In this document: positions 4,697 through 46,138 of the stretch, one piece after another
Layout: the number at the start of each line of letters is the position of its first letter
Numbering within the stretch: the first letter of the stretch is position 1
Notes under the pieces: generated by a model
What the model saw: only the letters and a program-made list of their open reading frames with translations
Databases searched by the model: none
What the model was told of the DNA's origin: nothing
Program-made: the position numbers and the translations under genes
Source of the DNA: Bolinopsis microptera
Taxonomy: Eukaryota; Ctenophora; Tentaculata; Lobata; Bolinopsidae
Length of the DNA: 64,000 bases
Direction: 5' to 3'
Assembly (NCBI RefSeq): GCF_026151205.1
Contig: NC_087080.1
Coordinates: 3,141,096-3,205,095 of the forward strand

Positions 4697-4966
4697 TTGT
4701 GTTCAACCAAGGGACAGTTCAACACGGTTGATGAAATTCCATGGAGGTGTCCAATCAGAACACCACAGAAGAACACCTGATAGCAGATGGACCAATCACA
4801 GTCTCAAACGGCGGTCTATGGATCGTAAGAATGGATAGTGAGCGGCAGAGTTTAACGATAATTAGCAGCAGACTCAGGACTCTTTGAGATTCGGAGACGA
4901 TATATGAGGATGACGATCGGAGGATAGACCAGTCTTAGGTCAGCACAGTAGATGGGGTTGTTCCAG
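4697..4966. repeat. Dispersed repeat, copy 1
   Basis: Matches 5429-5632 closely from the CAAGGGACAGTTC block to the final GTTCCAG. This copy carries about 70 bp (roughly 4746-4815) that the second copy lacks, so the copies differ by a clean deletion or insertion next to CCATGG. Noncoding; family unknown. Confidence 0.8.
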
Positions 4967-5428: not shown

Positions 5429-5632
5429 TTGTGTTCTGCCAAGGGACAGTTCGACACGGTTGATGACATTCCATGGTCTATGGATCGTAAGAATGGATAA
5501 TGAGCGGCAGAGTTTAACGATAATGAGCAGCAGACTCAGGACTCTGTGAGATTCGGAGACGATATATCAATATGGGGATGACGATCGGAGGATAGAGCAG
5601 TCTTAAGCCAGCACAGTTGATAGGGATGTTCC
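5429..5632. repeat. Dispersed repeat, copy 2
   Basis: Second copy of the unit at 4697-4966, shorter by about 70 bp. It ends exactly where the 366-bp tandem repeat begins (…GTTCCAG/CACCTC). Confidence 0.8.
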
Positions 5633-5634
5633 AG

Positions 5635-7550: not shown

Positions 7551-7606
7551 GTCTCACAAGAAGACTGTATTCAAATACCACCTTCAGTTTCTGTTATGTT
7601 TAATAA

Positions 7607-8098
7607 CACATCAGCAATAACTTTTTCTCATACAAGAGATGTAAGATCGAAAAAACACCTCATTAAAAAGAAACACAGCCTCGAGGCCAAGCACTTATCA
7701 TGCTGTTTTTAAATGGCCGTAGTTATGGCCGTAAATCTAAAAATGTTATTTATGTGGCCCAATGTAAGCTTTGTATCTAATCTAGGAAGTATCTAATAAA
7801 GGAAGAAGGTTATGAGATAGTTGTAGAAGACACTTATTTCGGGCAAACAATGCAAAACTTTCATAAACGTGGCAATGGACACAGAGCTTGTTTTAAACTG
7901 AAAGTAGAGGATCGTAATAAATCATCTCTTTCGATTCATGCCTATGAACATCACAGTGACAGTTTTACTATTGACAACTATAAATTTGCCATTTTGAAAT
8001 AATGTAACCCCAGGGGATTAAATAGGGAGGCCTTTAGGTATATTGAGAAGTATAGAACTAATTGCTTTGGTTTAAATAGGTGCAAAGTTGAAAGATAA
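7607..8098 (+). pseudogene. Penelope-like element relic: GIY-YIG endonuclease end
   Basis: One frame, broken by in-frame stops (near 7779 and 8000), keeps the C-terminal layout of Penelope-like retroelements. A VRSKKHLIKKK-type basic block comes first, then KNVIYVAQCKLC, then YFGQTMQNFHKRGNGHR, which corresponds to the YVGQT…R…H core of GIY-YIG nucleases. An IHAYEHHSD block and NREAFRYIEKYRTNCFGLN follow. A frame change lies near 7710. No reverse transcriptase is visible upstream, where the 366-bp repeats sit, so this is a 5'-truncated dead copy. A free-standing GIY-YIG gene is less likely given the basic block. Confidence 0.7.
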
Positions 8099-8462
8099 GG
8101 TCCTTAGTTTTTAATTCAATTTTTGAAGCTTTTTTCTATTTGTAGTTCATTTCCATTTACCACGTGTATTTTATTTAGGTAATTTGATTCTCGATTTTTT
8201 GAGGCATTTTAGATCTTCGTTTGTTAAGTACTAATTAAACTAACCAACTTAATTCCATTGTAGCTAATGATGTAATCTTACGAAGTATACACTACATTTG
8301 CGTGTTTCACTGTCTAGCCCACCAACCATAATCTAAGAAGAAAAGAACGCGGTATTAAGAAGCTTTTTGTTAGATCAGTAGATTTATTATTTTGAATGTG
8401 TTGACAAATCTTAATACGAATTTTCAAAAATCGGATAAATATAACATTTTAACCTGAATTAA

Positions 8463-9830
8463 GGCTGGGGGTTCACCCTGAATTTTTTGTGAAACTTGGT
8501 TTCGAGATAGCAGTTGACCAACAAACTAGGACCGGTGACCGAACTTTTGAGGGGGTCCCGGACCCCAACCGCCAAACGGTGCCCGCGGGGCAGCCACGCC
8601 CATATTTGGTCCAAATTAGGCCCAATTTAGCCAAATACCCTGAACATGCCCAAAACCCAGATTTTAGGTGCTCTACTTGTAGCTAGTGGTCCCCTGAACT
8701 CGTATATGAATTTTCATCAAGATTGGACAAAAAATGACTGAGTTATGAGCCAAAAACCATATGACCATATTTGGGCATACGCACCAAATTTGATCGATTT
8801 TGGCCCATAAATTGGTCAAATATCAATATTTTTGAATGAAACCAACTTTATATGGAAGATAAGCCTATACTACAGATTCTCTATGATTATCAGCTCAATA
8901 TCTACCTAACTGTGGATTCTGTGTTCAATTAATTGCAAAAAATGAACAAAATCGCCCATATCTCAGTTCGCGATATTTGCGAAACTGATTTCGTTCAAAA
9001 CAATAGAACTCAATAGGGTTTCAATATTTTTACATGAAATTTTCAGAATCAACGTAGAATCGCATTTCGACCTTAAGTTTTAATATGGAATTTTGAGTTA
9101 GGCCTTTAAAAAAATTTGGCGGCCAAATTCTGAAAAATGCCCGGCAAATTTCAGAATTTGGCCGCCAAATTTTTTTAAAGGCCTAACTCAAAATTCCATA
9201 TTAAAACTTAAGGTCGAAATGCGATTCTACGTTGATTCTGAAAATTTCATGAAAAAATATTGAAACCCTATTGAGTTCTATTGTTTTGAGCGAAGTCAGT
9301 TTTGCAAATATCGCGAACTGAGATATGGGCGATTTTGTTCATTTTTTGCAATTAATTGAACACAGAATCCACAGTTAGGTAGATATTGAGCTGATAATCA
9401 TAGAGAATCTGTAGTATAGGCTTATCTTCCATATAAAGTTGGTTTCATTCAAAAATATTGATATTTGACCAATTTATGGGCCAAAATCGATCAAATTTGG
9501 TGCGTATGCCCAAATATGGTCATATGGTTTTTGGCTCATAACTCAATCATTTTTTGTCCAATCTTGATGAAAATTCATATACGAGTTCAGGGGACCACTA
9601 GCTACAAGTAGAGCACCTAAAATCTGGGTTTTGGGCGTGTTCAGGGTATTTGGCTAAATTGGGCCTAATTTGGACCAAATATGGGCGTGGCTGCCCCGCA
9701 GGCACCGTTTGGCGGTTGGGGTCCGGGACCCCCTCAAAAGTTCGGTCACCGGTCCTAGTTTGTTGGTCAACTGCTATCTCGAAACTAAGTTTCACAAAAA
9801 AATCAGGGTGAACCCCCCCCCCCCCCCCCC
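8463..9830. mobile_element. 1.37-kb nearly perfect palindromic foldback element
   Basis: Two arms of about 670 bp are almost exact reverse complements around a short centre near 9134-9150 (AATGCCCGGCAAA). The outer ends are GGCTGGGGG on the left and an 18-base C run on the right. TTAA flanks both sides (8459-8462, 9831-9834), consistent with a 4-bp target duplication. The left arm has the same sequence as the element at 5975. The open frames inside (for example 9598-9927 minus and 8489-8686 plus) are mirror copies of each other and carry no domain. It is non-autonomous, and the transposase would have to come from elsewhere. Confidence 0.85.
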
Positions 9831-9834
9831 TTAA

Positions 9835-10640
9835 ACCATGCGTTTGAGGAACTGTGCAAAACGCTAGACTCGGAAGACACACAGAGAAATAGTCTATCAT
9901 CTTTTTATGTTCGACATTCATGACCACATTAAATATACAGCGAATACCAGAATGTTGGACCTTTCACCCAACATTAGTAATAACATCAGTTGGCGGCAAT
10001 GCACCCGGCATCTAGTGGAGTCTTATGTAGTATTTATCAAAAAGAGGATATGAATAGATAAACTAAATTGTGGTAAATAAGATCATGCCATAGATCAGTG
10101 ATAAATGATGGAAAATGAAGTTAATGACTGCCACATCATCTGAACTGTAATTAGAGGAACAACAAAGGGCAAGTTTAAATTTAAGTTTGAGGATTAAATT
10201 TCATTAACTGAACAGCGCTTGCGCGCTTTCCTCTCGTGTAGAAATTGTTGTAGCTTTCTTTATTTCTCTGATTAACTGACATTCGGCGCCGCGCGCTCCA
10301 CACAGTGAAATTACGTAAGACCTATCATTTATATAATCGTCATTTCCCCATGACTTTTAAATACGGAAACCATGCCCGTCTCAACATGAACAGTGGGCAT
10401 TTTCCAAAGAAAATGACCCACACAAGGAAAATAACAACACGGAATTTTATTTTGAGAATTATAAAATCAAATTAAGCAATGTTCTTCACTTCGAGTCTTT
10501 TTCTCCTGACTGAAGTCGGCCTGATACCCATGGCGATCAGCAATGGCGCGTTGTCTGTATCTGTGGATGGGCAAATTAGCAAATAATAATTATTGCAATC
10601 AAGCATCATTACCAAGAAAAAAGTGACTCAACCTAAAACT
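9835..10640. other. No gene seen
   Basis: Sequence between the palindrome and the 3' side of the eRF1 gene. The right end probably includes eRF1 3' untranslated sequence, but no clear polyadenylation site could be chosen. Confidence 0.5.
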
Positions 10641-10875
10641 TGAGAGGAAAACAGCTTCCTGTTTGTAATTTTCGTCGTGATTTCTTTAAAAAGTTAAGGT
10701 ACTCTGAAGTTTCAGACATCAAAGTTACCAAATGGCGAGAAATCGATAAGCTTACGAACAGAACAAGGCTGTCGGCTGATGTGAAAAATGTATCCCTTGA
10801 CTGATGGAAACAAAACAATTTCATAAATGTCACCTGTATCATGGTTATTAGGCCCGGTTTAAGGCCGTCCACATG

Positions 10876-13800
10876 TCAGAAGTCAAAATCGTCCAAATCA
10901 TCCTTGTCGTAGTGGCTATCAAACACTTCAAAGGACTGGAAGTCGACCTTGTACCGGAGAATACCCCCAACTCCACCAAATCCCTTACAGAACTGGGAGC
11001 CTTCTTGTGATTTGTCTGTGATGATCTCCAGCGTTGCACCTGGATGATGCAAGTATCTGTTATTATCACAATAGTCAGATGTTTATTTCGCTTAGTTTAT
11101 TTAGTTAGTTACTTAGGGCAATTAAAAATACTCTCATTATTTAATAAAGAAGCGAAGTACCGAAGGTTTTGTAGTTGTTTGCAAACCACTCTATCAATGC
11201 CATCTTCTCCAACACCTCTAGCTCTACGCCAGCCTGAAAAACAATATTTTGCTAGAACATATCATTTAGTAGTACCTGTAACAATTCTGCCGTTTTCTGA
11301 CAAATGTGGACAATTTTTTAAATTTTCGATTCTTTTATCCAGATTTCGTTTTTAGGTCAAGATCTATCCCTAAAAACCATCAGAAATCATCAGAACCAAT
11401 CACCAGCCGGCCCCTGATATATATGCCTTTTTACAAAAGTGCTTACTTGTATATATAAACACTTTTGTAAAAAGGCATGATTAACGTTACATGCAGATTG
11501 CAGAGCATTATGCATAAGCGGTAATATCATTGATCAGAATCTAATGAACGAATTTGATTGGCTGTGTCTTTGTAAGCTAAGAAAACAAACACGCCAAACC
11601 TACCTACGATATTATAATGACTCTACAACTGTAGATAATCGCTACTTTTACATAGCTCATTAGAAAATTCCGATATTTATAATTTTATTCTTAGATATCA
11701 CTTAACAAACACATGTAATTAAGTAAAGTACGTGTAAAAGTACGTGTAAAAGTACGTGTAAAAGTACGTGTAAAAGTACGCATCAAAGTACTGACGTCCA
11801 TAAAGAGTGTTTTGTCCTGTTCATCGTCAGGTCGAATGTGTATAACACGTTCTTCTTCCGTTTGGTGGTTCTTCAAAGTTATCCTGAGTTTTAAAATTGT
11901 TTAGGATTACGACCATATAATCTATAAGTTTTAAATAGCTCAACAATTTTTTCTCTAAATTCAGCATTAATTTTACATTGTATTAATTTAACATTATATT
12001 GATATAAACCAAATTTCCCATCTCACCGCATAACATCCAGATTTTCCCACACTATCAGAGTTTCTACAGCTCCCATATCGAGGGCCTTCATGGTGTCTTC
12101 TACTCCGAAGCAGTACTTTCCCGTATCTTGTGAGATCTCGTCAAAATATCTGCCTGAAATAAAAAACATGATGAAAACCTAACATGAAATGTGATGCTTA
12201 TTATAACTGCCCAACAAGCTGAGAATGTTGCAACCCGAGAAGGAATTAAAAACTACGTCATCAAAAGTTGTTATCAGTAGCCACCGGCTGAATTCAATAT
12301 GAAATACAACGAAAAATATCCAACTTCTATTAAAACTTCATCACTAGAGTTACTCGAATCTTACCGATAAGTTTTTTCTCCTGAATGAACTTTACATTAG
12401 CTAGACACTCCTGCGATAGTTCTATAGCCTGATTGAAGCCATTCTCTCCACCGTACGAGACGTCCACTAGTTTCAATACCTTGGTTTGTAACCGAGGGTC
12501 GAACATGTCCGAACCGCTCAGCTCGCTCTTAAAATCTGCTGATCCCGCCAAAATTAGTCCAGTTACGTTGGGCTAAGAAAAAGAGGGGATTAGTAAGAAC
12601 AACTAGCTCACAGAAGGAAACCAAATAATCACATTTTTTAAAAGTAATGCTAAACAATGACCAACAATTTCAGCAGACAATACCTTGTCGTTTGCTATGA
12701 ACAGACCCACGGCAGTTTCGGCCACTTTTCTGACGTAGTTGTGCCTTTTTTCCATACGGAGTCGAGCGAAACGGAGAGCGGACTGACCACCTCTTCCTGA
12801 GGAAATATAATATTAAATATTATAAATAATCTGAGAAAGCGGTACATTACAGTGTGGGGAGACTTTTAATGTACAGCTCACAAACGTAACTAAACAATTA
12901 AACTATTAACTAATAATACTGAAACAATTAAAATATTCACAAAATCATCAACTAACTAATTAACAAACTGCAATACACTTACCGTGTTTCTTAGGCAAGT
13001 CAACTGTGAACTTCTGGAGAACATTCCTGGTATTACCACAGAGTGTACCAAACAAACAACCGTTACCGTCCATAACTATGAACCCAAATCTGAAATAGTA
13101 TTATATTTTATAACACCGGCTTAATTGAATATCTAATTGATTTAAGAACTGAAGTGGGGGCCAGGGGGGGGGGGGGGGGGGTGGTTTTGGCCGGGGTAAC
13201 TGAAAGACAACAGAATAATCAACAACCTGTTAGATTGATTATACCGATTCTAAAAGGGATTTTTATTTATCAAACGCATTCAATACTCCGCACAATTTCA
13301 TGACATACACTTGTTATAAAATTAACAAAGAAAGAGATAAGAAATACCTGTTATCATCGGCTAGGAGAGCGTCCAGGGCCTCCGTGTGGAACTTGTTATC
13401 ACACAAGTACAGAGATGTATTGATCGGTTTAAAGGGCTCGAAGTCAATGTTAACCTTTTTTTCTTTTCCTTCGTCTGTGATGATGGTACCACAGTACACT
13501 ACCAATCCCTTTGGAGGCACTGAAACATGAGAATTTAGTCAGATGTTCTTAAATCTGATATTGTTTTCGATTAAAGAGCGGTCCATGACCACTGGAAGGT
13601 TCTGCACACTTTCCATTATAACTTAGAATGATCAAGATTCTTTAAAGATGTAAAAGCATCCGATAGATTACCTCATGTAACTCTCAAATAAACAAATCTA
13701 AATAACAATGAGTTTTAGTGATAAACTGAATACAATAGTCACCTCTGTTGTAGAGCTTTATTCTGTGTTGTACAGAAGTTATAGCTCCCAAAACGGAAAG

Positions 13801-14832
13801 CCTGCGGAGTAAATCATTATAATTACAGTCTGTTATCTGTTAGTGTTACAAACCGGAACTGTTACATACTGTTACAGTGTTACAGTCTATAACAATCTGT
13901 TACAGTCTTTAACAGTCTGCTACAGACTGTGACAGACTGTAGTTCTCGTTAGAAAAATTATAGTACACTTTTTGCAACAATCCAAACACTTATACAAAAT
14001 CAAAGTTACAACTTCTAGCATATGTTGTAAGATGGTAACGAGCACCTCTACATATTCCTTCTCAAAAAATAAATTCTAATTGCTTGTTAGTTAATGGAAA
14101 CTAAAGAAGGGGAAATGTATTAATTCAGATTTCCGAGATTCTATGATATAAATTATAAACTAATATAGCAGCTAGCTCTAAGATATTGATAGTAACCTAG
14201 TAACCAGATAGTAACCTAGTAACCAGATTCAGATTTATAAGCTTTACCTGTTTACACGTGACTTAATGTTAGCCGCCGTTCCGTACTCTTCTGCTAGCAG
14301 TTTGCTAACTCTAGCTATTTGATCTTTAGGTGGGATAATGAGAGAGATCATACTGGTTCCGTTACTGAAATTAAAAGTCTTATTTTTCAGCAGATTCAGT
14401 TGCTTGCATTCTTTAACATTAGACCTGAGCAGTCCTCGAGTAGATTATTACAAAGAGGTAACCAGAAAATAATTGGTGCAGCAAACATGTGCTTATATAA
14501 TGTATTGTATATATTTATTATTTATTCATCATGATATTAAAACATTAAAATTGACATTTGATAGTAATGATTGCAAAAAGTTGTTAAAGCCATAATTTAC
14601 AATTATACGATCTATTACATATTGAAAACTAGTTTAAATTATTTGAACATTTAACGTAATGCATGAGTTCAGGAAATACAAAAAAGCACATTTAAAACTT
14701 TATTATATAGTGATTTAACAAGCAAGAGTTAAGCTCATAATAGAATTACCCTCTAGCGGCCTCCAGACTTTTGATTAGTTTCTTGATCTTCCATATTTCA
14801 ACATTTCGGTCAGTTGAATCGTCACCAGACAT
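10876..14832 (-). CDS. ETF1: Eukaryotic peptide chain release factor subunit 1 (eRF1), 11 exons
   Basis: eRF1 recognises all three stop codons in the ribosomal A site and triggers peptide release, acting with eRF3. Exons (minus): 14832-14750, 14364-14248, 13801-13743, 13519-13348, 13089-12983, 12796-12684, 12572-12365, 12153-12027, 11883-11796, 11233-11161, 11039-10876. All junctions are GT-AG, every phase agrees, and the sum is 1311 nt: 436 residues plus TGA, against 437 in human. NIKS falls at residues 60-63, YLCDNKF at about 124-130 and GGQ at 182-184. The C-terminus is acidic ([10 protein letters not shown]), as expected. ATG at 14832 starts the conserved [13 protein letters not shown] block. 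Exon 9 (about residues 329-358) is the most divergent part; its donor GTCAGT was chosen because it keeps phase. The gene appears intact. Confidence 0.96.
11423..11478. repeat. Perfect 19-bp inverted repeat in eRF1 intron 9
   Basis: The arms ATGCCTTTTTACAAAAGTG and its exact reverse complement are separated by an 18-base AT-rich loop. It could be a tiny MITE or a simple hairpin. No target duplication is evident. Confidence 0.85.
11727..11780. repeat. 12-bp tandem repeat in eRF1 intron 9
   Basis: About four and a half copies of acgtgtaaaagt, beginning only about 14 bases inside the intron from the exon 9 donor. The unit is in frame with exon 9, so intron retention would add an RTFT repeat peptide. 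Confidence 0.9.
13164..13181. repeat. Poly-G run in eRF1 intron 4
   Basis: An 18-base G homopolymer in a locally G-rich stretch. Unlike the runs at 3327 and 5975, no inverted partner is visible. Confidence 0.85.
13855..13945. repeat. Degenerate gttacagtct repeat in eRF1 intron 2
   Basis: Irregular copies of TGTTACAGTCT and TACAGACTGT within intron 2. Noncoding. Confidence 0.6.
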
Positions 14833-15600
14833 CCTTGCCTAAATGTGGTTTAGAATAAGATAAAATGCAAATTTTGATAAGAGACTTTATATTTCTATAT
14901 TTTAGGTGGTTGTTCGGTTGAAAAGGGTATTTATAGATGAGTATGAACATTGACCAGGTGTTCGTATTGAAAGGTTTTATCATTATTTCATTCTAAAAAG
15001 GCTGATTTTTAAATTTCAAATGCTCTGAGCAATTAGATTGCAGGAGTAGTTGAAACACAGATAGAGCTTTGAAATTGAATGAAATGACGAGCTAATTACA
15101 ATAAATCCGGGTTTATTACATTATACTGCACTGCTTGGCTCAACATGAAAAATCACCTAGATTTACAATAAAACCAATACCACATATTTAAAGTGATGAC
15201 TTGATTGCTTGGAACAGTTCCAGCAGTCTTTTATTAACTGAACAATGGATAAAGAAATTTCCTATAATTTACAATAAGTCTTGCAATTCTACTGTCTAGC
15301 CTATTCTCCATAAGGTATAATCTAACCAATCTTTTCCTAAATTAGTGGTAGCAAAGATCTATTTCTAGAGTTCTAAAGATTTTTTTCCAAACCACAAACA
15401 GATAAAATAAATAAATAAATTTTAACATTTATTACACGCTTCGACATTAAAATATACCCAACAAAGAAATACATTTAAGTAATTAAAGCGAGACTTAGTG
15501 TTGAAATACCAAGATTATGGACTTTTTATCAGTTCAGATTTTATGGACAAATATTTGTATGAAGTTCCCAAAATTATGCACTTTCATATCAGTTCAGACT

Positions 15601-27600: not shown

Positions 27601-30600
27601 ACAATAGTCCATAGCTCAATATTTTATTTCAGACTAGTCTTAAATACTGGGGGTAAATGGGGGAATTTCTGGATATATTTTCTTGGTATGGGAGAATTTG
27701 TTGCTAATTCTAGTGGAGTTGGTTTATCTAATAAGTATACCTTACCATACTTTACTTGAACGGGCATTTATTGGACGCTGGAGGCCCTTATAACTTAATA
27801 ACGTTTATTTTAATGTCCGTTCAAATAAAGTCGGTCCGTTTATGATCCGTTAAAATTTCTTTCCCAAACTTATTGTATGCACTACGAACTTATTGGCCAG
27901 GATATGATTACTTATATTTTGTGGTTCGTTTAGTTTACTAGTTTAGTTTAAATGCAACCAATTGCCAAGTTACATCAAAACTGTGTCTGAATGCACTTTT
28001 GTTAAGGAATAATTTTATATCCTGCCTTGAAACTTTTACATAGTGGCCAAATCAAAACTCGCGAGCAGCCCTGATTTGAGCAATTTGCCCTTCTACTTAT
28101 TACTAAGGTATTCCATAATTTTACATTACTTTTGTCGGATGATTTGAGTTCACCATAACATTGCAAGTCTTGTAATCTTCCTATCTTTGATAAGTTTGGT
28201 ACAAACGATTGTGAGTGATCAAGCATACATGGTCTAATGACTATCAGTGAGAATATAAAACAGAAAATTCACCATAATCTTATCCTTATCATCAGTCCTC
28301 ATGATGTGCCTGATGATTCCCTCTAGGATGACTGGGTCTATCTTCATATGCTGACGACTCCTTTTGCCATGCTGGTGTCTGTTCCTCATCAGTTCGGCGC
28401 TTTGATCAATCTCTGATAGAATTTGTGAATCAGTGATTTTTACCACATTATGATGACATTAATGATGATTATCTGAGGGTTCACGATTAGGTGAACTGGG
28501 TTATTTATCATGCAAAAACGCCATTTTGGTCAACCTTAACCGAAATAGATTCAAGTTAAACTGAAATTCAGTAAGTTTTTACTTTTCTTAACGTCTTTAA
28601 CAGGCTGCAGGTCCTGAACAGTTTTCCCGTAGCATTCTGAAGGTTTCTTACCCCATCTGTCTGAAGTTATGTAGTCATTTTAAAGCATTGCAATTAAATT
28701 CTGTTTTATATTTAATTTGAAGTTGAGCTGTGATTTTTCAGTAAAATGAACCAACAAACACAGATCACGATATGTCGTGCCAGTCCACTGAACTCTGCAA
28801 TAATCTCACAGTACGCGACACCCACAGTGGATACCACTGTATAAATCTGCATAGATTCTTTAGAAAGACACACACGTCAGAGGTGGCTATTATATTCCCA
28901 CATAACATGGTGATAGTCATAGTAACTGTACCTTCAACCTCTTTCTTAGGCGCATAACGTTTGAGGAAATTGATCATCTTGTCGTTTTTCTTAGAGTACG
29001 CAATGTGTAGAGGTGTCCTGTTGTCGTAGTCACTCGAGTTGGGATCCGCACCACAATCTAACCAAATCTGGGGGATTAACTGTTTTTAATATCCAAGGTT
29101 GAGCAATTTTCCAATAAAAATCAACCTTTCATTCATTGAACAATAACTCAGTGACCTAGTATGGTTATGACGTCACCTTCGTAACAGATATATGTTTAAT
29201 CTCATTTCCCATCTGCTTAGTTCTGTCGGACAATTTCAATTGATGTAGAAGACATGCGACCAGACGTTTATTGCTTGTTCAGGCACGTGATGAATTGAAA
29301 CCCAATCGCAATATTCGGAGAACAAATAGTACTATTAGTTCGTAGAATGGGCTTAGTTATCCGACCTTAATTTCAGGGAAACCTCACGCACTCCTCCAAA
29401 TATCTTGTTCTTCTATAGCCATTAATATCAATCTAGTGATTGAACCAAGTATCAGTGATGAGTGAGATGCATAGTTATATTATATTCACCATTATAGTAA
29501 GGCGATCTTTGTCAAGCACTTTCCGTTCTAAACGCAGAACCTCTAGAGACGGTTTTCTACGACACGTACGTAGTTTCAGAAGACTTGGTCTGTGTCATAT
29601 TGCTTTCATAAAATGACACGACATTGATCATACGTATTTATTTCACACATAAATATCATAACACGCCGCTTTTTGAGAATAAACAATTTTTGCATTTCTT
29701 TAGTTTTAAATCAACCATGTCTTGGCATTTTCCCTATAATATGAAACTACACTTTATTTTGGCTTATCAAGTACGGCTACCAAAGTCAGTAGTTTCCGTC
29801 ATGCTAGAAAACATTACGTTCAAAAACAAACTAGTTTCAAAAACAAACTAGTGCCATATTCTCACCATCACAGTTATAGGCAGTTGAAAAGCTTATAGTT
29901 TACTAACTTACTTTAAGTCGGTCGAGGTCGTCGTAAGCGACCATATAACACAGCATGGAAGATATCTGACTTTTCTTCAGCCTGAGTCTACCTCCTGCAG
30001 AGACACGTGAGTCGAATTAAAAAGTTGCTCTTTTAGAAGAACTCTTCTGTAATTTATGTAATTTACATATTAAATATATTAAATAAACTCTTTAAACAAA
30101 CTTAAATAAACTTAATTTAGTAAACTCTTTAAATAAACTCATAACACATGTCTGGTGACATAACAAAGAATCTGAAGAGCAGCTCACCCTTTTTATATAT
30201 GTATTTAGCAAGGTTAAAGTGTCCGTGAAGAATAGCGGAACTGAGGGCGTTGTTCTGGAAATTATCAGTCTGGTGAATATCAGCCTGATTCTGTAGGAGC
30301 AGATGTACCAGTTCCTCTCTGTTCTCAGCACAGGCCAGGTGTAACGCACATCTCCCGTCATAGTCACTGCAGATAAACATTAAACAGTCATAGTCACTGC
30401 AGGTATACAGTCATAGTCACTGCAGGTATACAGTCATAGTCACTGCAGATATACAGTCATAGTCACTGCAGATAAACAGTCATAGTCACTGCAGGTATAC
30501 AGTCATAGTCACTGCAGATATACAGTCATAGTCACTACAGGTATACAGTCATAGTCACTGCAGGTATACAGTCATAGTCACTGCAGATATACAGTCATAG

Positions 30601-31700
30601 TCACTGCAGATATACAATCATAGTCACTGCAGATATACAGTCATAGTCACTGCAGATATACAGTCATAGTCATTGCAGATATACGGTCATAGTCACTGCA
30701 GATATACAGTCATAGTCACTGCAGATATACAGTCATAGTCACTGCAGATGTACAGTCATAGTCATAATGTATAATGTATAATGTATAATGTATAATGTAT
30801 AATGTATAATGTATAATGTATAATGTATAATGTATAATGTATAATGTATAATGTATAATGTGAATAGGTTTACTCATCAGACAATGTCTTGCTTATCATA
30901 AAATTAGCAGATCTAATTCTATTTCTAGGTTACTTGTGGCCCAAAAAGTCGGCCCGAAATGTATTCTTTTTACTGTTGGAAAACTTGCCTTGCGTTTAAA
31001 TCAGCCCCTAAGTCAATCAGTTCCTTTATCTTCTTTATAAAACCATGTTTTGCGTAAGCACAAAGTAAAATAGGCAGAATGCTTTTTTCAATGTTTTTAT
31101 AAGCAGATGGAGCAATTTTACGTTTCCCAGTCCGTATCTTTAAATCCTGTGCAAATGAATATTTTACAAAATGTGTTGATTAATTATTCATAAATCTCGA
31201 AAACTTTTCGAAAAGTCGGTTACTGAAAAGTTCTCAGTTTCTAACGATAATGTTGGTATTATTAATTCATATTTCTGCATATAATCTAAAATAAAACTTC
31301 GTAATTTAACCGTGACTTGACTCACTGTTATTATCTTCTGGGAGAGCCAATAACGTCTGAGGTGATCCTCTGGTGTGGTCACTGACATGAGTTCTACTTG
31401 AAGTATCCGTCTAAACGCTCCTGGGGTGGATTCAGTGGAACACGCTGCTAGTCCGAGATATTGTTCAGACGTCAGGTTAATTCGAGTGCATCAATATTTA
31501 TTTTTTGCATTTAACTTAATTAATCCATATTAATTCCCATTCTGAATGTAAATTTCTCCTACCTCCAGTGATATTGAGGATAATAATGACAATGTAAGCT
31601 GCTAGCGGGGCTGAGGTTTCCAGGTTAAATAGCTCAAAATAGGAGTTAAGAACTATCGATAGGAAAGTCGTGAAGAAGCAGGCAAACAGACCAATTATCA
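24641..31700 (-). CDS. Ten-ankyrin-repeat, probably membrane-attached protein (13 exons seen, 5' end missing)
   Basis: Exons (minus): 31700-31563, 31420-31326, 31146-30989, 30366-30188, 29994-29912, 29067-28932, 28412-28273, 26512-26417, 26027-25918, 25702-25597, 25485-25419, 25191-25078, 24840-24641. Phases agree at every junction, giving about 540 codons with stop TAG at 24641. Exon 1 encodes two hydrophobic stretches (LFACFFTTFLSIVL and AAYIVIIILNI). Ankyrin repeats follow, with diagnostic DYDGRCALHLA, DYDNRTPLHIA, DYDLRTPLHIA and DYDGRTCLAVA. They form two five-repeat modules joined by a basic segment (RNRHQHGKRSRQHMK). The tail is Ser-rich, then acidic (PEEEGEEGE). The DYDGRT ankyrin style is also seen in asparaginase-, glutaminase- and plant K+-channel-type proteins, but no catalytic domain is visible. 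The first coding exon was not found. Function unknown. Confidence 0.8.
26034..26300. repeat. AT-rich taattagtaa-type repeat in an intron
   Basis: Irregular tandem array of attagtaat and aaatagtaat words, directly 5' (minus sense) of the ankyrin exon at 26027-25918. It forms most of the short intron between exons 8 and 9. Confidence 0.85.
27310..27433. mobile_element. hAT-like MITE with perfect 8-bp target duplication
   Basis: A 124-bp element beginning CAAGGCTCGACCGAG and ending CTCGGTCGACCCTTG, which are inverted copies. It is flanked on both sides by the identical octamer GTGGTGCT (27302-27309, 27434-27441). An 8-bp duplication and CAAGG ends are the hallmark of hAT transposons. Inside are repeated CCTCGG words. 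It lies within the 1.76-kb intron between ankyrin-gene exons 7 and 8. Confidence 0.85.
30361..30765. repeat. 23-bp tandem array made of duplicated splice acceptors
   Basis: About 17 copies of a 23-bp unit (cagtcatagtcactgcagAtata). In the minus sense each copy contains CTGCAG/TGACTATGAC, the acceptor and first ten exon bases of the ankyrin exon at 30366-30188. The array fills the intron side of that exon, so the intron seems to have grown by copying its own 3' splice site. Use of the nearest upstream copy (AG at 30397-30398) would add ten codons in frame without a stop. Confidence 0.9.
30762..30861. repeat. 7-bp tandem repeat (ataatgt)
   Basis: About 14 near-perfect copies of ataatgt, directly beside the 23-bp array and in the same intron of the ankyrin gene. 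Confidence 0.95.
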
Positions 31701-32579: not shown

Positions 32580-33332
32580 TTAAATCTTTAAAAATAAAAA
32601 GAACAATATACAGCTCATAAAACCAACAAATAACAATAATTTCAACCCGGCACGTCGTAAGTTAGTACTGACTTTCGCTCCGACTCTCCTTTTCCACTGC
32701 TCCTCGGTGTTCACCCTAGGAAACGGTGTATCAGGAACTGGGACCCCAAGAAAATCACACAGTGGCTTCCATCCTTCCTTCACATTGAATATCAAGAGTT
32801 TTTCAGCAGGCACAGTTTCAATAACTCTGTTGTTCCAATCTGTATACATCTGAGCTAGATCTGTTTTTGGGTCATTAGGGTCGACCCCATGAACTACGAC
32901 CATAATTTTCATGACCCAATAAACGTACGATGCCATCATATAGGAAAATATAAATCTTTTAATTTTCCAAGCTAACCATGACTGCTTCTTGTTGCCACTG
33001 AATATTGTCTCTTGAGCTGAAGTGACCCATAAATCTGGACTGTCTCTTACTGTCAGTATAACTTTGGCGTCCGGATTCCATTCCATTAGCTGTTCGTAAA
33101 ACAAGCACCCGGGATATGATAAAGTAGAAGAGAAGCCATGAAGCAACTGAAGTAAACTAGAGTTATCCTCCTCATCCTCGTGTAGTTTCTGAAATAGATG
33201 ATAAAGGTGGGTATTGTGGAACGCTCTGAGCATGTCATAGCCTGGACCGAACCCGAGTTCTTCTAAAGCTGCTTGCAGAGATCTTGTACCAGTCCTGCCT
33301 AGTCCCACGCCGATAACTTTCAAACTTGTCAT
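32580..33332 (-). CDS. Sulfotransferase-like P-loop protein 1, C-terminal anchor
   Basis: 250 codons, no introns. The N-terminal P-loop-like motif GVGLGRTGTRSLQAALEELG (residues ~8-27) corresponds to the PAPS 5'-phosphosulfate loop, and VILTVRDSPDLW (~93-104) to the 3'-phosphate site. KEGWKPLCDFLGVPVPDTPF sits near the end of the catalytic fold. A hydrophobic C-terminal segment (LKLLLFVGFMSCILFFLFLK) suggests tail anchoring. Length and motifs fit the Sulfotransfer_4-type family; the substrate is unknown. It is the first of three tandem paralogues, and its 3' half is almost identical to theirs. ATG at 33332 precedes the conserved start MTSLKVIG. Confidence 0.85.
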   Translation of the reverse strand: MTSLKVIGVGLGRTGTRSLQAALEELGFGPGYDMLRAFHNTHLYHLFQKLHEDEEDNSSLLQLLHGFSSTLSYPGCLFYEQLMEWNPDAKVILTVRDSPDLWVTSAQETIFSGNKKQSWLAWKIKRFIFSYMMASYVYWVMKIMVVVHGVDPNDPKTDLAQMYTDWNNRVIETVPAEKLLIFNVKEGWKPLCDFLGVPVPDTPFPRVNTEEQWKRRVGAKVSTNLRRAGLKLLLFVGFMSCILFFLFLKI

Positions 33333-34043
33333 TATTGAAAAGTACGACGGCTTGTTTTTGCCCAGTAAATAAAGAGCAAACAGTACGAGAACACAGGGTG
33401 AGGTGGTCTCATTAATTAAAAGATTAGAAATATATATCTACATCCTACAGTGTAGAACTGTAATCTTAGATAACAAAATTACCATATCATATAATCAAAT
33501 TTTATTACATAATTATACAGTAGTATTTACATAACTTTATTCAAATCAAAACTAGAACATAAAAATCTGATAAGTAGCCTGAAAAGAAATACTAATACAT
33601 AAACTAAAACAACTTCCTCCATCCTGCTCCGTGATAGGCTATTATTCTAAAACTATACAAATCGTCTGTATTTACCGATGGAATGTTTTTATTCCTAATC
33701 AAATCTAATTTTATAGTATCCTAAGCAAGTTTGGCTGTGTCTGCCTAGTTCGGCTGGTGTCTGCCTACTCTAGTACTTTTCCCTTTTTAGTAGTTCGGCT
33801 TTCTACTGCGAAGTGTAAAGCAGCTGATTAATGTGAGCTGTTTTCATTGTGAAGGACTATTAGACAGTAGCAAAACTAGACAACTTCATGGAAGGAAGAA
33901 CTCCTGATAAAACTCTGTAATCACGAAGAAAGAATCGCTATAGCAAGGGGAAACGACAATAATTATGATACAAAAGTCTGACAATTAACTATAGAATAGA
34001 AACTACACACAAATAAATTCTAAATCGTCATCGAACGCCACAT

Positions 34044-34808
34044 TTATGAACAGAAATACATGCGATAAAGTACATAGCCGCAACCTAAGAGTGCCCATGC
34101 AAGTAAAACTTTTGGCAATGTCTCGCACAACTTCACTTCAATGCTTATGGAAACAAGTTCATTCCATTCTTCAGTGCTGTTCACCCACGGAAACGGTGTA
34201 CCAGGAACTGGGACCCCAAGAAAATCACACAGTGGCTTCCATCCTTCCTTCACATTGAATATCAAGAGTTTTTCAGCAGGCACAGTTTCAATAACTCTTT
34301 TGTTCCAGTCTGTATACATCTGAGCTAGATCTGTTTTTGGATCGTTTGGGTCGATCCCATGGAACTTCGTATCTGCCATTATCTTATGCACCAACTGAAT
34401 TTGTGGTGGTTCAAAGAAATCCCAAAAAAGTCTCTTGATATTAGACGGAATCCAGCCAGAGCTGTTGTTGCAGCTGAAAATAGTATTTCTGGCTGATCTT
34501 GCCCACGATTCTGGGGAGTCTCTGACAGTAAGGATAACTTTTGCTTTGGGGTTCAGCTTCATAAAGGTTTGGTAAAACATATTACCGGGCTGATCTACCG
34601 TGGCTTTGAAACCTTCAAATATAGCTTCGATAGCCTCTTCATTTTCAACGTCCTGCAAAATGGCTCTGAAATGGTGATTACGGTCGGGATGATTGGACGT
34701 CTCCTTCATATGATGACACGGAGTAAACCCCAACTCCTCCAAAGCCAACTTCATGGACATTGTACCGGTTCTCCCCAATCCCGTCCCGATTACTTGCATA
34801 CTCGTCAT
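34044..34808 (-). CDS. Sulfotransferase-like P-loop protein 2, C-terminal anchor
   Basis: 254 codons, single exon. The P-loop GTGLGRTGTMSMKLALEELG and the motif VILTVRDSPESWARS are intact, followed by DPKTDLAQMYTDWN and KEGWKPLCDFLGVPVPGTPF. A hydrophobic C-terminus (VLLAWALLGCGYVLYRMYF) is consistent with a membrane tail. It lies 711 bp upstream of copy 1 and 521 bp downstream of copy 3, all in the same direction. Bases about 34190-34340 are nearly identical to the matching parts of both neighbours, while the 5' halves differ clearly. This pattern suggests gene conversion or a mosaic duplication. Confidence 0.85.
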   Translation of the reverse strand: MTSMQVIGTGLGRTGTMSMKLALEELGFTPCHHMKETSNHPDRNHHFRAILQDVENEEAIEAIFEGFKATVDQPGNMFYQTFMKLNPKAKVILTVRDSPESWARSARNTIFSCNNSSGWIPSNIKRLFWDFFEPPQIQLVHKIMADTKFHGIDPNDPKTDLAQMYTDWNKRVIETVPAEKLLIFNVKEGWKPLCDFLGVPVPGTPFPWVNSTEEWNELVSISIEVKLCETLPKVLLAWALLGCGYVLYRMYFCS

Positions 34809-35000
34809 ATTACCAGAGCATTAATTTCAACCTGATGTTAGTTGTGAAAGTAATGCTCATCTCGTAAAAGTGAAAAACATCAAATCTCAAGAGAAGAAAT
34901 TCAAAATAGAAATAAAGTCGGTAAGTATAAAACTTAAAAAGAGCAGATGTGAAGTTTCGGTTGTGCTACATTAGTCCTAATGAAATACGCTATCAGATTG

Positions 35001-35045
35001 CACTGAAAGATAAATATTGTCTGCACTGAAAGATAAATATTGTTT
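35001..35045. repeat. Direct 20-bp duplication
   Basis: Two adjacent copies of ctgcactgaaagataaatat, in the spacer between sulfotransferase genes 2 and 3. Confidence 0.8.
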
Positions 35046-35329
35046 GCATCAACTTATCGGATGACAGTCTGCTTAACCCTGGCGAATCGTATGATAAGTT
35101 TACATTTTAGAGGCTTACATCGCCCAATTTGGCAAATATCCTAATTAAAAATTGTCATAGCTTTACAAATTGTCATGGCTTTGATAATCTAATCGCTCAA
35201 ATACATATCAATTTAATTCCTAGTCTGCTATTAATGCATTACGTCTTAAGGATGTAAAATAATCAAATTTGTATTATAATCGAGCATAAAAATCGAGCAT
35301 AAAAATCGAGCATAAAAATGACCATACCA

Positions 35330-36082
35330 CTAGAATCCTACAAGAAGGTAATACCCGCAAGCAAATATGAGTCCAGCCACTACGACTCTAGTCAGAGCAT
35401 TCAATATGTTTCCCTTCATCATTCCAGAAACTTTATTCTGCCACTGCTCCGTGCTGTTCACCCTGGGAAACGGTGTATCAGGAACTGGGACCCCAAGAAA
35501 ATAACACAGTGGCTTCCATCCTTCCTTCACATTGAATATCAAGAGTTTTTCAGCAGGCACAGTCTCAATAACTCTGTTGTTCCAGTCTGTGTACATCTGA
35601 GCTAGATCAGTATCCGGATCAGTAGGAGCGACTCCGTGGACACTTTGCTTTTCCATTATCTTGTGTATTAAGTAGAGGTGAATTGGCATAAACATTTGGA
35701 ACATGAAGACTTTCAGTTGTGACACGAGCCAATTAGCTTGGTTCGCACTGAAAATAGTGTCGCCTGAAGATTTAGCCCAAGCTTCCGGAGAATCTCGTAC
35801 ATTGAGGATCACCTTAGCATCTGGATTCAGTTTCATCAACTCCTCATAGAACATACATCCCGGATAGTCTACCGCTGCGACAAAATCTTTGAATACCGCT
35901 TTAATGGATTCCTCGACTTCCTTGTCTTTCAATATGTTATTGAAATATTTAAAACATCCTTCTTGCCCAAACGTGACCACCATGTGATGGCATGGTCCGA
36001 AACCAATTTCTTCCAGAGCTAACTTCATGGACATGGTTCCCGTCCTTCCCAACCCTGCTCCTATTACTTGGAGGTTTGTCAT
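35330..36082 (-). CDS. Sulfotransferase-like P-loop protein 3, C-terminal anchor
   Basis: 250 codons, single exon. The P-loop GAGLGRTGTMSMKLALEEIG and VILNVRDSPEAWAKS are present. The core includes DPDTDLAQMYTDWNNRVIE and KEGWKPLCYFLGVPVPDTPF; a C-terminal hydrophobic stretch (RVVVAGLIFACGYYLL) follows. It is closest to copy 2 in the N-terminal half (shared MSMKLALEE-GF-PCHHM). Its stop is followed by a short array of atcgagcataaaa repeats (about 35279-35318), probably in the 3' UTR. All three copies look functional, with no stop or frameshift. Confidence 0.85.
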   Translation of the reverse strand: MTNLQVIGAGLGRTGTMSMKLALEEIGFGPCHHMVVTFGQEGCFKYFNNILKDKEVEESIKAVFKDFVAAVDYPGCMFYEELMKLNPDAKVILNVRDSPEAWAKSSGDTIFSANQANWLVSQLKVFMFQMFMPIHLYLIHKIMEKQSVHGVAPTDPDTDLAQMYTDWNNRVIETVPAEKLLIFNVKEGWKPLCYFLGVPVPDTPFPRVNSTEQWQNKVSGMMKGNILNALTRVVVAGLIFACGYYLLVGF

Positions 36083-36892
36083 TCTTTCACTTTGTCAATG
36101 CTTAAACGCTGCTGGGAATTAATATGTCAGGTATTTAATGTTGTTAATCAATACCTTACGTTGATAAGTTAATAGATAGGTCAGATAAATACTAAACAAA
36201 AACTAAATCGAAAAATTAAAATTGACATCAAATTCTTGAGCTGACGAAATTGAGCAAGGACTTGATAAAGATTGGCAAATAAAATCGTATTTTGGGAGTT
36301 ACATATTTTTGTCATATGGAACATGAAAATTGAAAATTATGTTTTTTTTCCTTCCCTTTTAACCCTTGCCAGTTTGTTGCCAAAAATTAAAAATTACATC
36401 ACTAAGCATGGTGCAATGAAAACTATGTCAAGATATGATATTTTTGCCTTCGTTGCTGAGCAAGAGATAAAGAGAGGTATTAGGTAACACGCACAGAAAA
36501 AACGTTTATAAACGTATAAATACCAAACAAACACAATTATCATTAAGACTAGGAACTAGAAAGTCAATGACAAACTCATTATTCAATTTACAATTTACAT
36601 CACTTCCTAGTATAGTCTTAATATGGTAGTTTCAGACGGTAAATACAGGAAAACTGCACTTAAGCTTAGACTCGTGATTCTGAAAATTCGCATGTCAAAT
36701 ATTTGTTGCCATAACATGCAGAAAAAAAAACGAAACTTTTAAAAACATGAAAACAATGTAATATTTAGTGAGCACAGATTGTCTTTTATTTCTGCCGTCT
36801 AGAAAATTACGTGTAAAATTACAATGTGTAACTTCACATTATTCTCCATAACAGCTGGCCTGCTTATTGAAAAGGTTTGCAGTTATTTCACG

Positions 36893-41052: not shown

Positions 41053-44000
41053 CTGAGTGAACTCCAATGACGAAGTAGAGCCCAGAAATGCTCATCATGG
41101 TGAAGACCGAGGGGAATATAAGGAGTTTAATTGAGACAGTAGTCCAGAGGGGGGAAAGGAGGATAGCACTGACTGCTCCTGCAACTGCTCCTATCCACGC
41201 CATTAGGCAGGAGATCGGCGAAGTTATCAGTAACCCTGGGGTTAATCAGCGTCAGTGAGGGATTACAAAAGTAGTATCAGTTGTTTCCTTGAGATGAGAT
41301 GATGTTAATACGTCAAACAACCAATTGTGTTCTTGATGTTCAAGACACAATCTCAGTTCATACAATAATGGAGCACAGAAGAACGCAGAACTAAAAGTAT
41401 TGGTAAATGTTGACAAACATATAGTGAGTGGGATGATAAACTAGAAGTGTTGGTAAATGTTGACAAACCTATAGTGAGTGGGATGATAAACTAAAAGTGT
41501 TGGTAAATGTTGACAAACCTATAGTGAGTGAAATGATAAACTAAAAGTGTTGGTAAATGTTGACAAACCTATAGTGAGTGGGATGATAAACTAGAAGTGT
41601 TGGTAAATGTTGACAAACCTATAGTGAGTGGGACGATAAACTAGAAGTGTTGGTAAATGTTGACAAACCTATAGTGAGTGGGACGATAAACTAGAAGTGT
41701 TGGTAAATGTTGACAAACCTATAGTGAGTGGGATGATAAACTAAAAGTGTTGGTAAATGTTGACAAACCTATAGTGAGTGGGATGATAAACTAGAAGTGT
41801 TGGTAAATGTTGACAAACCTATAGTGAGTGGGATGATAAACTAAAAGTGTTGGTAAATGTTGACAAACATATAGTGAGTGGGATGATAAACTAGAAGTAT
41901 TGGTAAATGTTGACAAACCTATAGTGAGTGGTATGATAAACTAGAAGTGTTGGTAAATGTTGACAAACCTATAGTGAGTGGTATGATAAACTAGAAGTGT
42001 TGGTAAATGTTGACAAACCTATAGTGAGTGGTATGATAAACTAAAAGTGTTGGTAAATGTTGACAAACCTATAGTGAGTGGTATGATAAACTAAAAGTGT
42101 TGGTAAATGTTGACAAACCTATAGTGAGTGGTATGATAAACTAAAAGTGTTGGTAAATGTTGACAAACCTATAGTGAGTGGTATGATAAACTAGAAGTGT
42201 TGGTAAATGTTGACAAACCTATAGTGAGTGGTATGATAAACTAAAAGTGTTGGTAAATGTTGACAAACCTATAGTGAGTGGTATGATAAACTAGAAGTGT
42301 TGGTAAATGTTGACAAACCTATAGTGAGTGGTATGATAAACTAGAAGTGTTGGTAAATGTTGACAAACCTATAGTGAGTGGGACGATAAACTAGAAGTGT
42401 TGGTAAATGTTGACAAACCTATAGTGAGTGGTATGATAAACTAGAAGTGTTGGTAAATGTTGACAAACCTATAGTGAGTGGGACGATAAACTAGAAGTGT
42501 TGGTAAATGTTGACAAACCTATAGTGAGTGGGATGATAAACTAGAAGTGTTGGTAAATGTTGACAAACCTATAGTGAGTGGGATGATAAACTAGAAGTGT
42601 TGGTAAATGTTGACAAACCTATAGTGAGTGGGATGATAAACTAGAAGTGTTGGTAAATGTTGACAAACCTATAGTGAGTGGGACGATAAACTAGAAGTGT
42701 TGGTAAATGTTGACAAACCTATAGTGAGTGGGATGATAAACTAGAAGTGTTGGTAAATGTTGACAAACCTATAGTGAGTGGGATGATAAACTAGAAGTGT
42801 TGGTAAATGTTGACAAACCTATAGTGAGTGGGATGATAAACTAGAAGTGTTGGTAAATGTTGACAAACCTATAGTGAGTGGTATGATAAACTAAAAGTGT
42901 TGGTAAATGTTGACAAACCTATAGTGAGTGGGATGATAAACTAGAAGTGTTGGTAAATGTTGACAAACCTATAGTAAGTGGGATGATAAACTAGAAGTGT
43001 TGGTAAATGTTGACAAACCTATAGTGAGTGGTATGATAAACTAAAAGTGTTGGTAAATGTTGACAAACCTATGGTGAGTGGTATGATAAACTAGAAGTGT
43101 TGGTAAATGTTGACAAACCTATAGTGAGTGGGATGATAAACTAAAAGTGTTGGTAAATGTTGACAAACCTATAGTGAGTGGGATGATAAACTAAAAGTGT
43201 TGGTAAATGTTGACAAACCTATAGTGAGTGGGATGATAAACTAAAAGTGTTGGTAAATGTTGACAAACCTATAGTGAGTGGGATGATAAACTAGAAGTGT
43301 TGGTAAATGTTGACAAACCTATAGTGAGTGGTATGATAAACTAGAAGTGTTGGTAAATGTTGACAAACCTATAGTGAGTGGTATGATAAACTAGAAGTGT
43401 TGGTAAATGTTGACAAACCTATAGTGAGTGGGATGATAAACTAGAAGTGTTGGTAAATGTTGACAAACCTATAGTGAGTGGTATGATAAACTAGAAGTGT
43501 TGGTAAATGTTGACAAACCTATAGTGAGTGGGATGATAAACTAGAAGTGTTGGTAAATGTTGACAAACCTATAGTGAGTGGTATGATAAACTAGAAGTGT
43601 TGGTAAATGTTGACAAACCTATAGTGAGTGGTATGATAAACTAAAAGTGTTGGTAAATGTTGACAAACCTATAGTGAGTGGGATGATAAACTAGAAGTGT
43701 TGGTAAATGTTGACAAACCTATAGTGAGTGGGATGATAAACTAGAAGTGTTGGTAAATGTTGACAAACCTATAGTGAGTGGGATGATAAACTAGAAGTGT
43801 TGGTAAATGTTGACAAACCTATAGTGAGTGGTATGATAAACTAAAAGTGTTGGTAAATGTTGACAAACCTATAGTGAGTGGGATGATAAACTAGAAGTGT
43901 TGGTAAATGTTGACAAACCTATAGTGAGTGGTATGATAAACTAGAAGTGTTGGTAAATGTTGACAAACCTATAGTGAGTGGGATGATAAACTAGAAGTGT

Positions 44001-46138
44001 TGGTAAATGTTGACAAACCTATAGTGAGTGGGATGATAAACTAGAAGTGTTGGTAAATGTTGACAAACCTATAGTGAGTGGGATGATGCTTTCCCATCTA
44101 TCTGTAAATAGAACATACGACATTCCTTTATACAAATCAATACCAAACTGGCTCCTAGAATGGAATATTATGTGTTAGTCTTAGATAACTTTTACTTATT
44201 CAGCAACAATTGAACAAAACAGGTCTAGGAAATAAAGTCATAAAGTAATAAAGAAATGTGAAAACTGATTGAAAGAACTTATATAAAAGCAAGTTGATCA
44301 CAATAATTATCTCACGCTGTAACAGAGCAGTCGGCACTACCAGGATTATCACAGTTAACAAAAAACATAATATTGTCAGCGTCCACACTGGTTGGTTTGA
44401 GGTCTAGGGTAGGAGCAGGACTTGTGAAGAGGTAGGTGCTGTGTGACTTTAGAGTGACTACCATGAACCCCACCAGTGCTGGGGCTAAGAACAAAGGGGT
44501 GCATCTTAATCTGATTGAGAGATAGTGGGTTTGAAAAGGTTGTAACCTTTAAATTGTAGTTCAGATCAGAAATCCTCTATTCGGGAAGTAAAAACAAAGT
44601 TTTAAATCAAAACTATAGTTCCAAACTCGCAAATAAATAGACAAATAAAAAAGAAGACTAACACTTTCACAAGGAAGATGCCAATAGCCTGGAAGAGGAG
44701 TAGAGTGAGTAAAGTGAAGGGGATTAGTAGCACTAGCTGGGGTAACTGACTGACATGATCCTCTTCTAAGTTAGCTCTGTACACTATAAAACCCAACAGT
44801 ACCCCTGAAAATGGAGTTATAAACATTCAAAATAGTTGTAGTTTCAAACATTCAAATAGTTTGAGATTTAAGTATTTTTGTTTCTAAATTCAACTCAAGA
44901 GAAGCTGACACGCTTACCTTGAGGGGTAGAGTCTATAGAGACTATATTATTATATAATATAGAAACTATAGATACTATATTATTATATAGTATAGAGACT
45001 ATAGAGACTACTACTATACCTTGGGAGGGATAGAGACCGTTATAAATCTGTTCGTCAGGAACTCCCAGATAGAAGGCCCACACTCCAACCCACAACACAC
45101 ACCAAGTTACATATATCACACCATACGGCCTGGAAAGTGAGGTGTGAACGAAAACACTGTGGATATAGAAAGTAAATACAAATCTCAGTAGTCATTAATA
45201 AACACATGATAACACTGTGGATATAGAAAGTAAATACAAATCTAAGTAGTCAGTATTAAGCACAAGGTAACATTACCAGCTGATCAAGTATTATATAAAA
45301 TGTGTTGTCAGGTAACTGAGGTAGACCAGGGACACAAGAAAATCGCGATTATTTTGCTCAAAAATCGCGATACCGCGATTTTTGACAGGCTATACATAAG
45401 ACTATACATAAAATTTGTCGCAAATAAAGGGACAAAATCGCGATTCCGCACATCCGCGATTTCCTTTTGTCCCTGAGGCAGACAGGTCACGTGATATACA
45501 GTGTTCCTTACCAGCAGCCTAAACAGATCCCAACGAACACACAGAGACCGAGAAAAGGATTGCTGATTCCTAACCACATCCCCAGAGACCGCAGGAAGGA
45601 GAATATTACTGAAATTAGAAATGTTCAGGTTAGATAGTTAAATGTGTGGAACTATCCCAATGAAATAGGCTAAGCAGAATATATAGGGTCACACTGTAAT
45701 TATGATACAATATTTGTATTTCTAAAACCAAAATGGACAGAAAGCTGGCTCACACGTGAGAGTGGTGTGTCCCCTAATGATCTGATGAAAGTCTGGCATG
45801 GTGCCAGAAAGGTATTTCCATGTAGGGTTAGAGGCTCTCTTGAAACGATTCTGGTAGTTGGTATTCCAGGGGCTTATTTCACTGTAGTCTGAGTAGAGAT
45901 TACGGTCTGTACTCTCAAACGGTCCCCTGAAAGGAATACCTTCAGTCACAATTCAGGTGATGTTTCGTTAAACATTATCTTTTAACATCTCAAATATATG
46001 TTTAGGATTGTTTCAAACGATAAACAGAACGGCCGGAAATAGACATGCCATATTTTCCCTCTTTCTTTTCAAGGAGAAAACATAGTGGAGCGTTGAGAAC
46101 ACTTACTCATATCCATCATACTCATCAGCTTCACTCAT
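41053..46138 (-). CDS. Urea transporter (SLC14-like), seven exons seen, C-terminus missing
   Basis: Exons (minus): 46138-46107, 45926-45754, 45608-45512, 45129-45020, 44804-44665, 44510-44341, 41235-41053. The protein begins MSEADEYDGYEG and continues to about residue 300, then a donor with no recognisable next exon. Family marks in order: LGISNPFLGLCVFVG (the LxxNPLxG signature), IYNGLYPSQGVLLGF (like SGLYGYNATLVG), LFLAPALVG, the NCDNPGG repeat start, and ITSPISCLMAWIGAVAGAVS in the second half. Channels of this family pass urea through the membrane as trimers. Phases agree except between exons 5 and 6, which do not fit by one base; that border is misplaced or frameshifted. The 3.1-kb intron 6 is mostly minisatellite. 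A possible alternative first exon is at 49844-49917. Confidence 0.72.
41391..44088. repeat. 50-bp minisatellite, ~54 copies, in a urea-transporter intron
   Basis: The unit contains tggtaaatgttgacaaacct and atagtgagtgggatgataaa, then ctagaagtgt, and repeats about 54 times with very few changes. Most variation is at two places: g/a in cta[g/a]aagtgt, and gga/gta/gac before tgataaa. Such homogeneity implies recent unequal exchange. Noncoding; no origin or protein-binding function is evident. Confidence 0.97.
45327..45475. mobile_element. hAT-like MITE, copy 1
   Basis: Starts CAGGGACACAAGAAAATCGC and ends CGCGATTTCCTTTTGTCCCTG in inverted fashion, with internal ATCGCGAT words. The flanking octamers AGGTAGAC and AGGCAGAC differ by one base, a decayed 8-bp target duplication. 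The same family is at 58695-58771. It lies in the intron between urea-transporter exons 3 and 4. Confidence 0.8.

Follow-up and report, generated by a model that had tools for sequence, protein, structure and literature searches.

What does a gene do with an intron that ends in a row of copies of its own splice acceptor, and how did the copies get there? The case arises in a 64,000-nucleotide stretch of the ctenophore Bolinopsis microptera (assembly GCF_026151205.1, contig NC_087080.1, positions 3,141,096 to 3,205,095 of the forward strand; hereafter the window, whose own numbering is used), in which a minus-strand ankyrin-repeat gene holds a 23-bp array that repeats one of the gene's own intron–exon junctions. 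We consider it highly probable that this is a neutral, unstable minisatellite of the mirage type described in amphioxus, with the exon-adjacent acceptor (30367/30366) in use and the array tolerated.

Tandem Repeats Finder (TRF) calls the array as 23 bp × 16.6 with 95% matches (30384-30764), and the last 398 bp of the 622-bp intron (30764-30367, minus strand) divide into sixteen units of 23 bp followed by one of 30 bp next to the exon. The unit is composed of the last 13 intron bases and the first 10 exon bases, so that the intron carries 16 additional copies of the junction, and one inner unit equals the true junction exactly over 23 nt (13 intronic and 10 exonic), against a maximum of 12 both in 1000 shuffles of the array and in 155 other segments of the window. 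A preliminary description of this DNA had held that the acceptor and the first ten exon bases had been amplified, which the 17 units and the exact junction match bear out. The 7 extra bases are confined to the exon-adjacent unit, the other sixteen being 23 bp long in an array 95% alike (a single allele). The features around the junction, with the four exons named A to D and a slash marking each splice junction, are:

30989-31146, minus strand: exon A, an open frame joined in frame to exon B, ending ...LGADLNA + AG in phase 2; parts of the exon match paralogues at 53% and 49% identity
30989, minus strand: putative GC donor of exon A, CAAG/GCAAGT, at the position homologous to the GT donor of the paralogue on chromosome C9
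30367-30988, minus strand: A/B intron, 622 bp, phase 2, with GC...AG ends and acceptor TTATCTGCAG/TGACTATGAC
30764-30861, minus strand: 7-bp array ATTATAC ×14 (TRF, 100% matches), abutting the upstream end (gene sense) of the 23-bp array
30397-30764, minus strand: sixteen 23-bp units, consensus TGACTATGACTGTATATCTGCAG, each copying exon start and intron end
30367-30396, minus strand: exon-adjacent 30-bp unit with the 7 extra bases, holding the true acceptor TTATCTGCAG
30357-30366, minus strand: first ten bases of exon B, TGACTATGAC, encoding S-D-Y-D and closing the array
30188-30366, minus strand: exon B, ankyrin repeat DYDGRCALHLACAENREELVHLLL..., donor AAGG/GTGAGC, with paralogue matches
29912-29994, minus strand: exon C, GRLRLKKSQISSMLCYMVAYDDLDRLK, with a frame-consistent join and a paralogue match
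28932-29067, minus strand: exon D, IWLDCGADPNSSDYDNRTPLHIAYSKKND..., acceptor CCCCCAG/ATTTGG, with a paralogue match

The TRF calls of the 7-bp and 23-bp arrays overlap at one base, 30764. Exon B, which stands at the outermost array copy, is intact: its frame is open, it matches Pfam Ank_2 (2.4e-10) and Ank_4 (4.2e-10), and it joins in frame with both A and C. Conceptual joining of exons A to D gives a continuous frame reading ...KELIDLGADLNA-SDYDGRCALHLACAENREELVHLLLQNQADIHQTDNF... through the spliced exons. In the alignment, the putative GC donor of exon A at 30989 corresponds to the C9 paralogue's GT donor; an alternative GT donor (AACA/GTAAAA, 30974) lies 15 bases further on and also keeps the frame. 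We rejected the array as a coding tandem repeat, since reading through it meets a stop at every third unit.

The assembly searched comprises 264,652,675 bases in 232 contigs, of which C1 to C13 (26.2 to 15.2 Mb, together 258.07 Mb or 97.5%) are the 13 chromosomes; C14 measures 0.2 Mb. One glutamate receptor encoded in it has ML032222a iGluR, a Mnemiopsis protein, as its best PDB match, another is most similar to mammalian kainate receptors, and a search for COX1 gave nothing. The 20-mer CTGCAGTGACTATGACTGTA occurs in it ten times, always inside this array, and a 120-nt piece of the array matches this locus only in an assembly DNA search of a kind that skips simple repeats. No second haplotype of the array was found in the assembly, and the locus is single. 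The paralogue on C9 (13.095 and 13.106 Mb, same scaffold) has its intron at the same codon and in the same phase 2, with a CTCAAG/GTATTA donor and TTTTTTACAG/TGACTACGATGGACG on the acceptor side (the junction also given as TTTTTTACAG/TGACTACGATGG), and the stretches fetched around this shared intron contain no such repeat. A further paralogue on C5 encodes SDYDGRCALHLA and is intronless at that point. The DYD codons are TAT-GAC in both the array and the window gene, and TAC-GAT and TAC-GAC in the paralogues; because the array holds the window gene's own synonymous codons, copying probably ran from exon into intron and not the reverse. We rejected the array as source of the exon, as DYD is also encoded in the paralogues, which lack an array of this kind. 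The C5 paralogue carries an array at a different exon, where 21 copies of a 52-bp unit repeat the exon end ...YDISTSVN and the donor AACG/GTAAGT; by eye, that exon is similar to one near 28.67 kb in the window, and it has no Pfam match.

The row of acceptor-like sites that the preliminary description saw in the intron is there: the AG is kept in 15 of the 16 copies (hereafter decoys), one having changed to CTGCAA. The nearest decoy lies 30 nt from the true site, keeps the frame, is open and would add ten residues, again as described. The further claim, that the other copies shift the frame, stands in part. Five of them, at distances 99, 168, 237, 306 and 375, are also multiples of three, and from all 15 non-nearest decoys (including the one without AG) translation meets a stop no more than 22 codons on, counting from GADLNA, so that their outcome is nonsense and not an alternative frame. 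Of the 15 usable decoys, 14 would thus lead to a premature stop.

Arrays of the same build recur at other genes. Candidates were fetched by motif and their flanks read by eye, not blind (loci numbered L). We then recounted 17 eye-picked arrays, requiring a junction match of 14 or more bases in total, with no fewer than 5 on each side and some mismatches allowed, and passing those whose junction copies had a median of at least 10 matched exon bases (L033 was outside the recount). Fifteen of the 17 pass, eight at acceptors (the window, L037, L040, L041, L043, L046, L070 and L075) and seven at donors (L014, L030, L032, L043, L065, L069 and L075); L044 is borderline (exon bases median 5, maximum 8) and L036 fails. 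They hold 2 to 68 additional junction copies each, which are lower bounds as some loci end inside the array. At L043 a single exon has both an acceptor and a donor array, and the L075 stretch has one of each. The copies in the 15 arrays retain AG in 60 of 64 acceptors and GT or GC in 159 of 160 donors, as expected if decoys are simply young copies. Exons near the arrays match Pfam families LMF1_C (4.3e-29), Sushi (1.9e-05), CoaE (1.1e-06) and EDC4_C (1.5e-14), and the UBE2W exon matches UQ_con (1.3e-14) in Pfam and UBE2W itself in the PDB (1.4e-24); for the other array exons the evidence is an open frame up to a splice consensus. Codon-usage scores separated exons too poorly (the true frame of exon A came out below zero) and served only to choose open frames for Pfam, where 24 of the 30 tried had no match at 0.01. 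The occurrence of one structure at unrelated conserved exons (UBE2W, CoaE, EDC4) points to a general mutational process.

Individual loci show further features. The UBE2W acceptor array (L041:436-907) has a 45-bp unit with one frame open (15 residues), through which use of the decoys might lengthen the protein in 15-residue steps. At L075:5002-7099 (C5:8.005 Mb) a 30-bp donor array runs to 69 copies of a unit containing the exon end ...EWVSQYNTG and GTAAATAC, and the EDC4_C acceptor array lies in the same stretch. L032 and L033 (C1:36-38 kb and 761-763 kb) share a near-identical flank and the same 32-bp donor array, ×37 in one vs. ×26 in the other, which means that copy number differs between apparent recent duplicates.

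How common such arrays are was approached through a motif-blind sample of 13 stretches of 10 kb, one taken at 8.0 Mb on every chromosome (130 kb in all). It contained 24 arrays by the TRF cut-off, and flanks were examined for 14; among these, in the part listed, two had copied junctions, both in L075. Two per 130 kb (Poisson 95% 0.24 to 7.2) would scale to ~500 to 15,000 per genome, a figure that says only 'not rare', since the two arrays are ~1 kb apart and not independent. Motif searches gave larger numbers: triplets of GGTAAGT with 12-42 bases between them had 5205 matches vs. 45 for the reversed motif (counted per copy), and TTTCAGG triplets 1426 vs. 309. We rejected the GGTAAGT count as proof of donor arrays, as it is made per copy, is inflated by dispersed arrays and comes with positions for the first matches only. 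In our own reading of the four loci fetched by the donor motif (L030-L033) the motif was antisense to the neighbouring exon in all four, and many arrays in the genome hold GGTAAC/GTTACC or GGTAAGT yet are not donor arrays, the motif being antisense or in mid-intron.

For acceptors, all 15 acceptor-motif arrays were compared with 18 of 22 control arrays among the matches listed, four controls being omitted as repeats of one already-sampled dispersed family. Counted by eye among the arrays listed, boundary arrays made up 7/15 of the acceptor-motif and 2/18 of the control group (two-sided p 0.047); left out of this count were L064 (4-5 exon bases), the second array of L037 and the donor array of L043, the last two not being the picked ones. 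The formal recount gave 5/15 (L040, L041, L043, L046, L050/L070) vs. 2/18 (L065, L068/L069), p 0.20. Restricted to homology-supported exons, a condition we had set earlier, the 15 include L041 and the borderline L044, and the 18 include L068/L069; the L050/L070 exon has an MFS_1 match that is below cut-off only. Boundary arrays thus recur in this genome, and we do not claim that they are enriched. More tentatively, and with somewhat more doubt than confidence, boundary minisatellites in this ctenophore lineage may form a genome-wide class of hundreds or more, at donors and acceptors alike, leaving many genes with rows of intact duplicate splice sites. If true, such a class would keep supplying copy-number-dependent splicing variation, and new introns, in animals other than the chordates from which mirages were described.

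Elsewhere in the window, a 50-bp array of 54 copies, 97% alike, occupies 41389-44087 and shows no exon boundary in its flanks by eye. Upstream of the ankyrin exons, three similar sulfotransferase-like long open frames lie in tandem (32580-36094, minus strand), the first of which, the one compared with Pfam, matches Sulfotransfer_4.

How would such an array form and persist? Tandem duplication of the last 13 intron and first 10 exon bases would place a second junction inside the intron, and slippage or unequal exchange could then amplify the duplicate to the present 17 units. The outermost copy would still form the intron–exon junction, leaving gene and signal intact, so that the array could be tolerated and could grow with no effect on the protein. 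Splicing most likely goes to the exon-adjacent acceptor, and decoys would be used rarely, leading mostly to a premature stop and decay. That the last AG wins is suggested by the intact gene and by the amphioxus precedent. Tandem duplications would be frequent in this genome, with those straddling junctions tolerated, and the boundary location of the arrays may reflect nothing beyond this tolerance filter. Array length would be expected to differ between haplotypes; variation in copy number among individuals, which the preliminary description had raised, is plausible by analogy with the haplotype and somatic length variation of amphioxus mirages.

The decoys could instead be regulators, competing for the spliceosome so that nonsense products tune the gene down according to copy number. 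The 15 retained AGs, a pyrimidine content similar to that of the true site, the stops reached from all usable decoys but the nearest, and the GC donor of the intron all fit this proposal, but the same structure stands at the unrelated UBE2W, CoaE and EDC4 exons, the amphioxus cases are reported in the passages cited below to splice normally, and the C9 paralogue manages without an array. We regard it as improbable. The idea that the array tunes splicing had also been put forward in the preliminary description, and nothing we saw supports it: nearly all usable decoys end in a premature stop, and comparable amphioxus arrays are reported without aberrant mRNA.

Slightly less probable again is a regular alternative acceptor at the nearest decoy, with two forms of the protein, one longer by ten residues in an ankyrin loop. 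Its distance of 30, in frame and stop-free, is what this would need, but the ten residues would be inserted after LNA and before SDYDG, within a conserved ankyrin repeat, and only the true site has the 7 extra bases. An assembly error or a dead gene is very improbable: tandem arrays are prone to misassembly and only one assembly is at hand, but arrays of the same build occur at other genes, and exons A to D all have open frames that join in frame and resemble two paralogues. We give almost no credence to an ordinary minisatellite or dispersed satellite brought beside the exon by chance or transposition; the genome is rich in minisatellites, some of them dispersed, but the 23-nt exact junction identity and the occurrence of the unit at one locus contradict it, and the dispersed satellite was rejected on the latter ground.

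Several points weigh against the neutral, tolerated array that we prefer. Use of the exon-adjacent acceptor is a prediction from sequence, and the decoys nearly equal the true site in pyrimidine content (7 of 12 in 15 decoys, 8 in one decoy and 8 in the true site), so that the sequence gives no reason for the last AG to be chosen. A spliceosome that scanned from an upstream branch point to the next AG would reach a decoy before the true site, and the nearest decoy is open and in frame. Selection on the true site could be what the 7 extra bases, present in the last unit only, reflect. Finally, preferential seeding of arrays by splice motifs is not shown by the formal recount above (5/15 vs. 2/18, p 0.20). 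The arrays raise the question of how the spliceosome selects the outermost among dozens of near-identical sites. For the window itself the array is mainly a caution, its intron being a difficult case for gene prediction and read mapping.

The closest known counterparts are the mirages of amphioxus, tandem units spanning a splice junction in Adh3, the globins BflGb6 and BflGb9, and TnC, for which the cited passages report undisturbed regular splicing and length variation both between haplotypes and somatically, and which were proposed, from few genes, as a source of new introns (PMC3087553). Repeats over splice sites are also described in PGBD5, in a source whose cited passage states that the Adh and TnC mirages generate no aberrant mRNAs (PMC3902484). 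Like mirages, whose units measure 10 to 160 bp in the cited passages, the arrays described here are tandem units with junction and exon sequence, on the donor or acceptor side, beside an intact exon; unlike them, they sit in a ctenophore, and one donor junction has as many as 68 additional copies. The primary paper on the Adh mirages is Canestro 2002. In human segmental-duplication genes, internal tandem repeats at exon–intron boundaries can, according to the cited passages, create alternative splicing or novel introns; these repeats belong to recent paralogues, half of them lie in coding exons, and they average ~4 copies of 30 bp (PMC2812944). Our searches, which covered open-licence papers, turned up no account of ctenophore mirages among the papers listed. 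A human splice-donor minisatellite described in 1995, reportedly in the gene 6-16/IFI6, is used in transcripts according to the title of the paper. It has in common with the window array a splice site in every unit, a donor in IFI6 and an acceptor here; units of the window array do not provide donors, and donor arrays occur elsewhere in the genome. NAGNAG and other tandem acceptors, like the window array, line up several acceptors before a single exon, and consist of few sites a few bases apart, not of a minisatellite. The window array is a mirage-type boundary minisatellite, a kind already known, and what is new is its recurrence in this genome, where a small search yielded at least 15 boundary arrays, at conserved genes and at either end of exons, which make the intron-gain idea attached to mirages directly testable.

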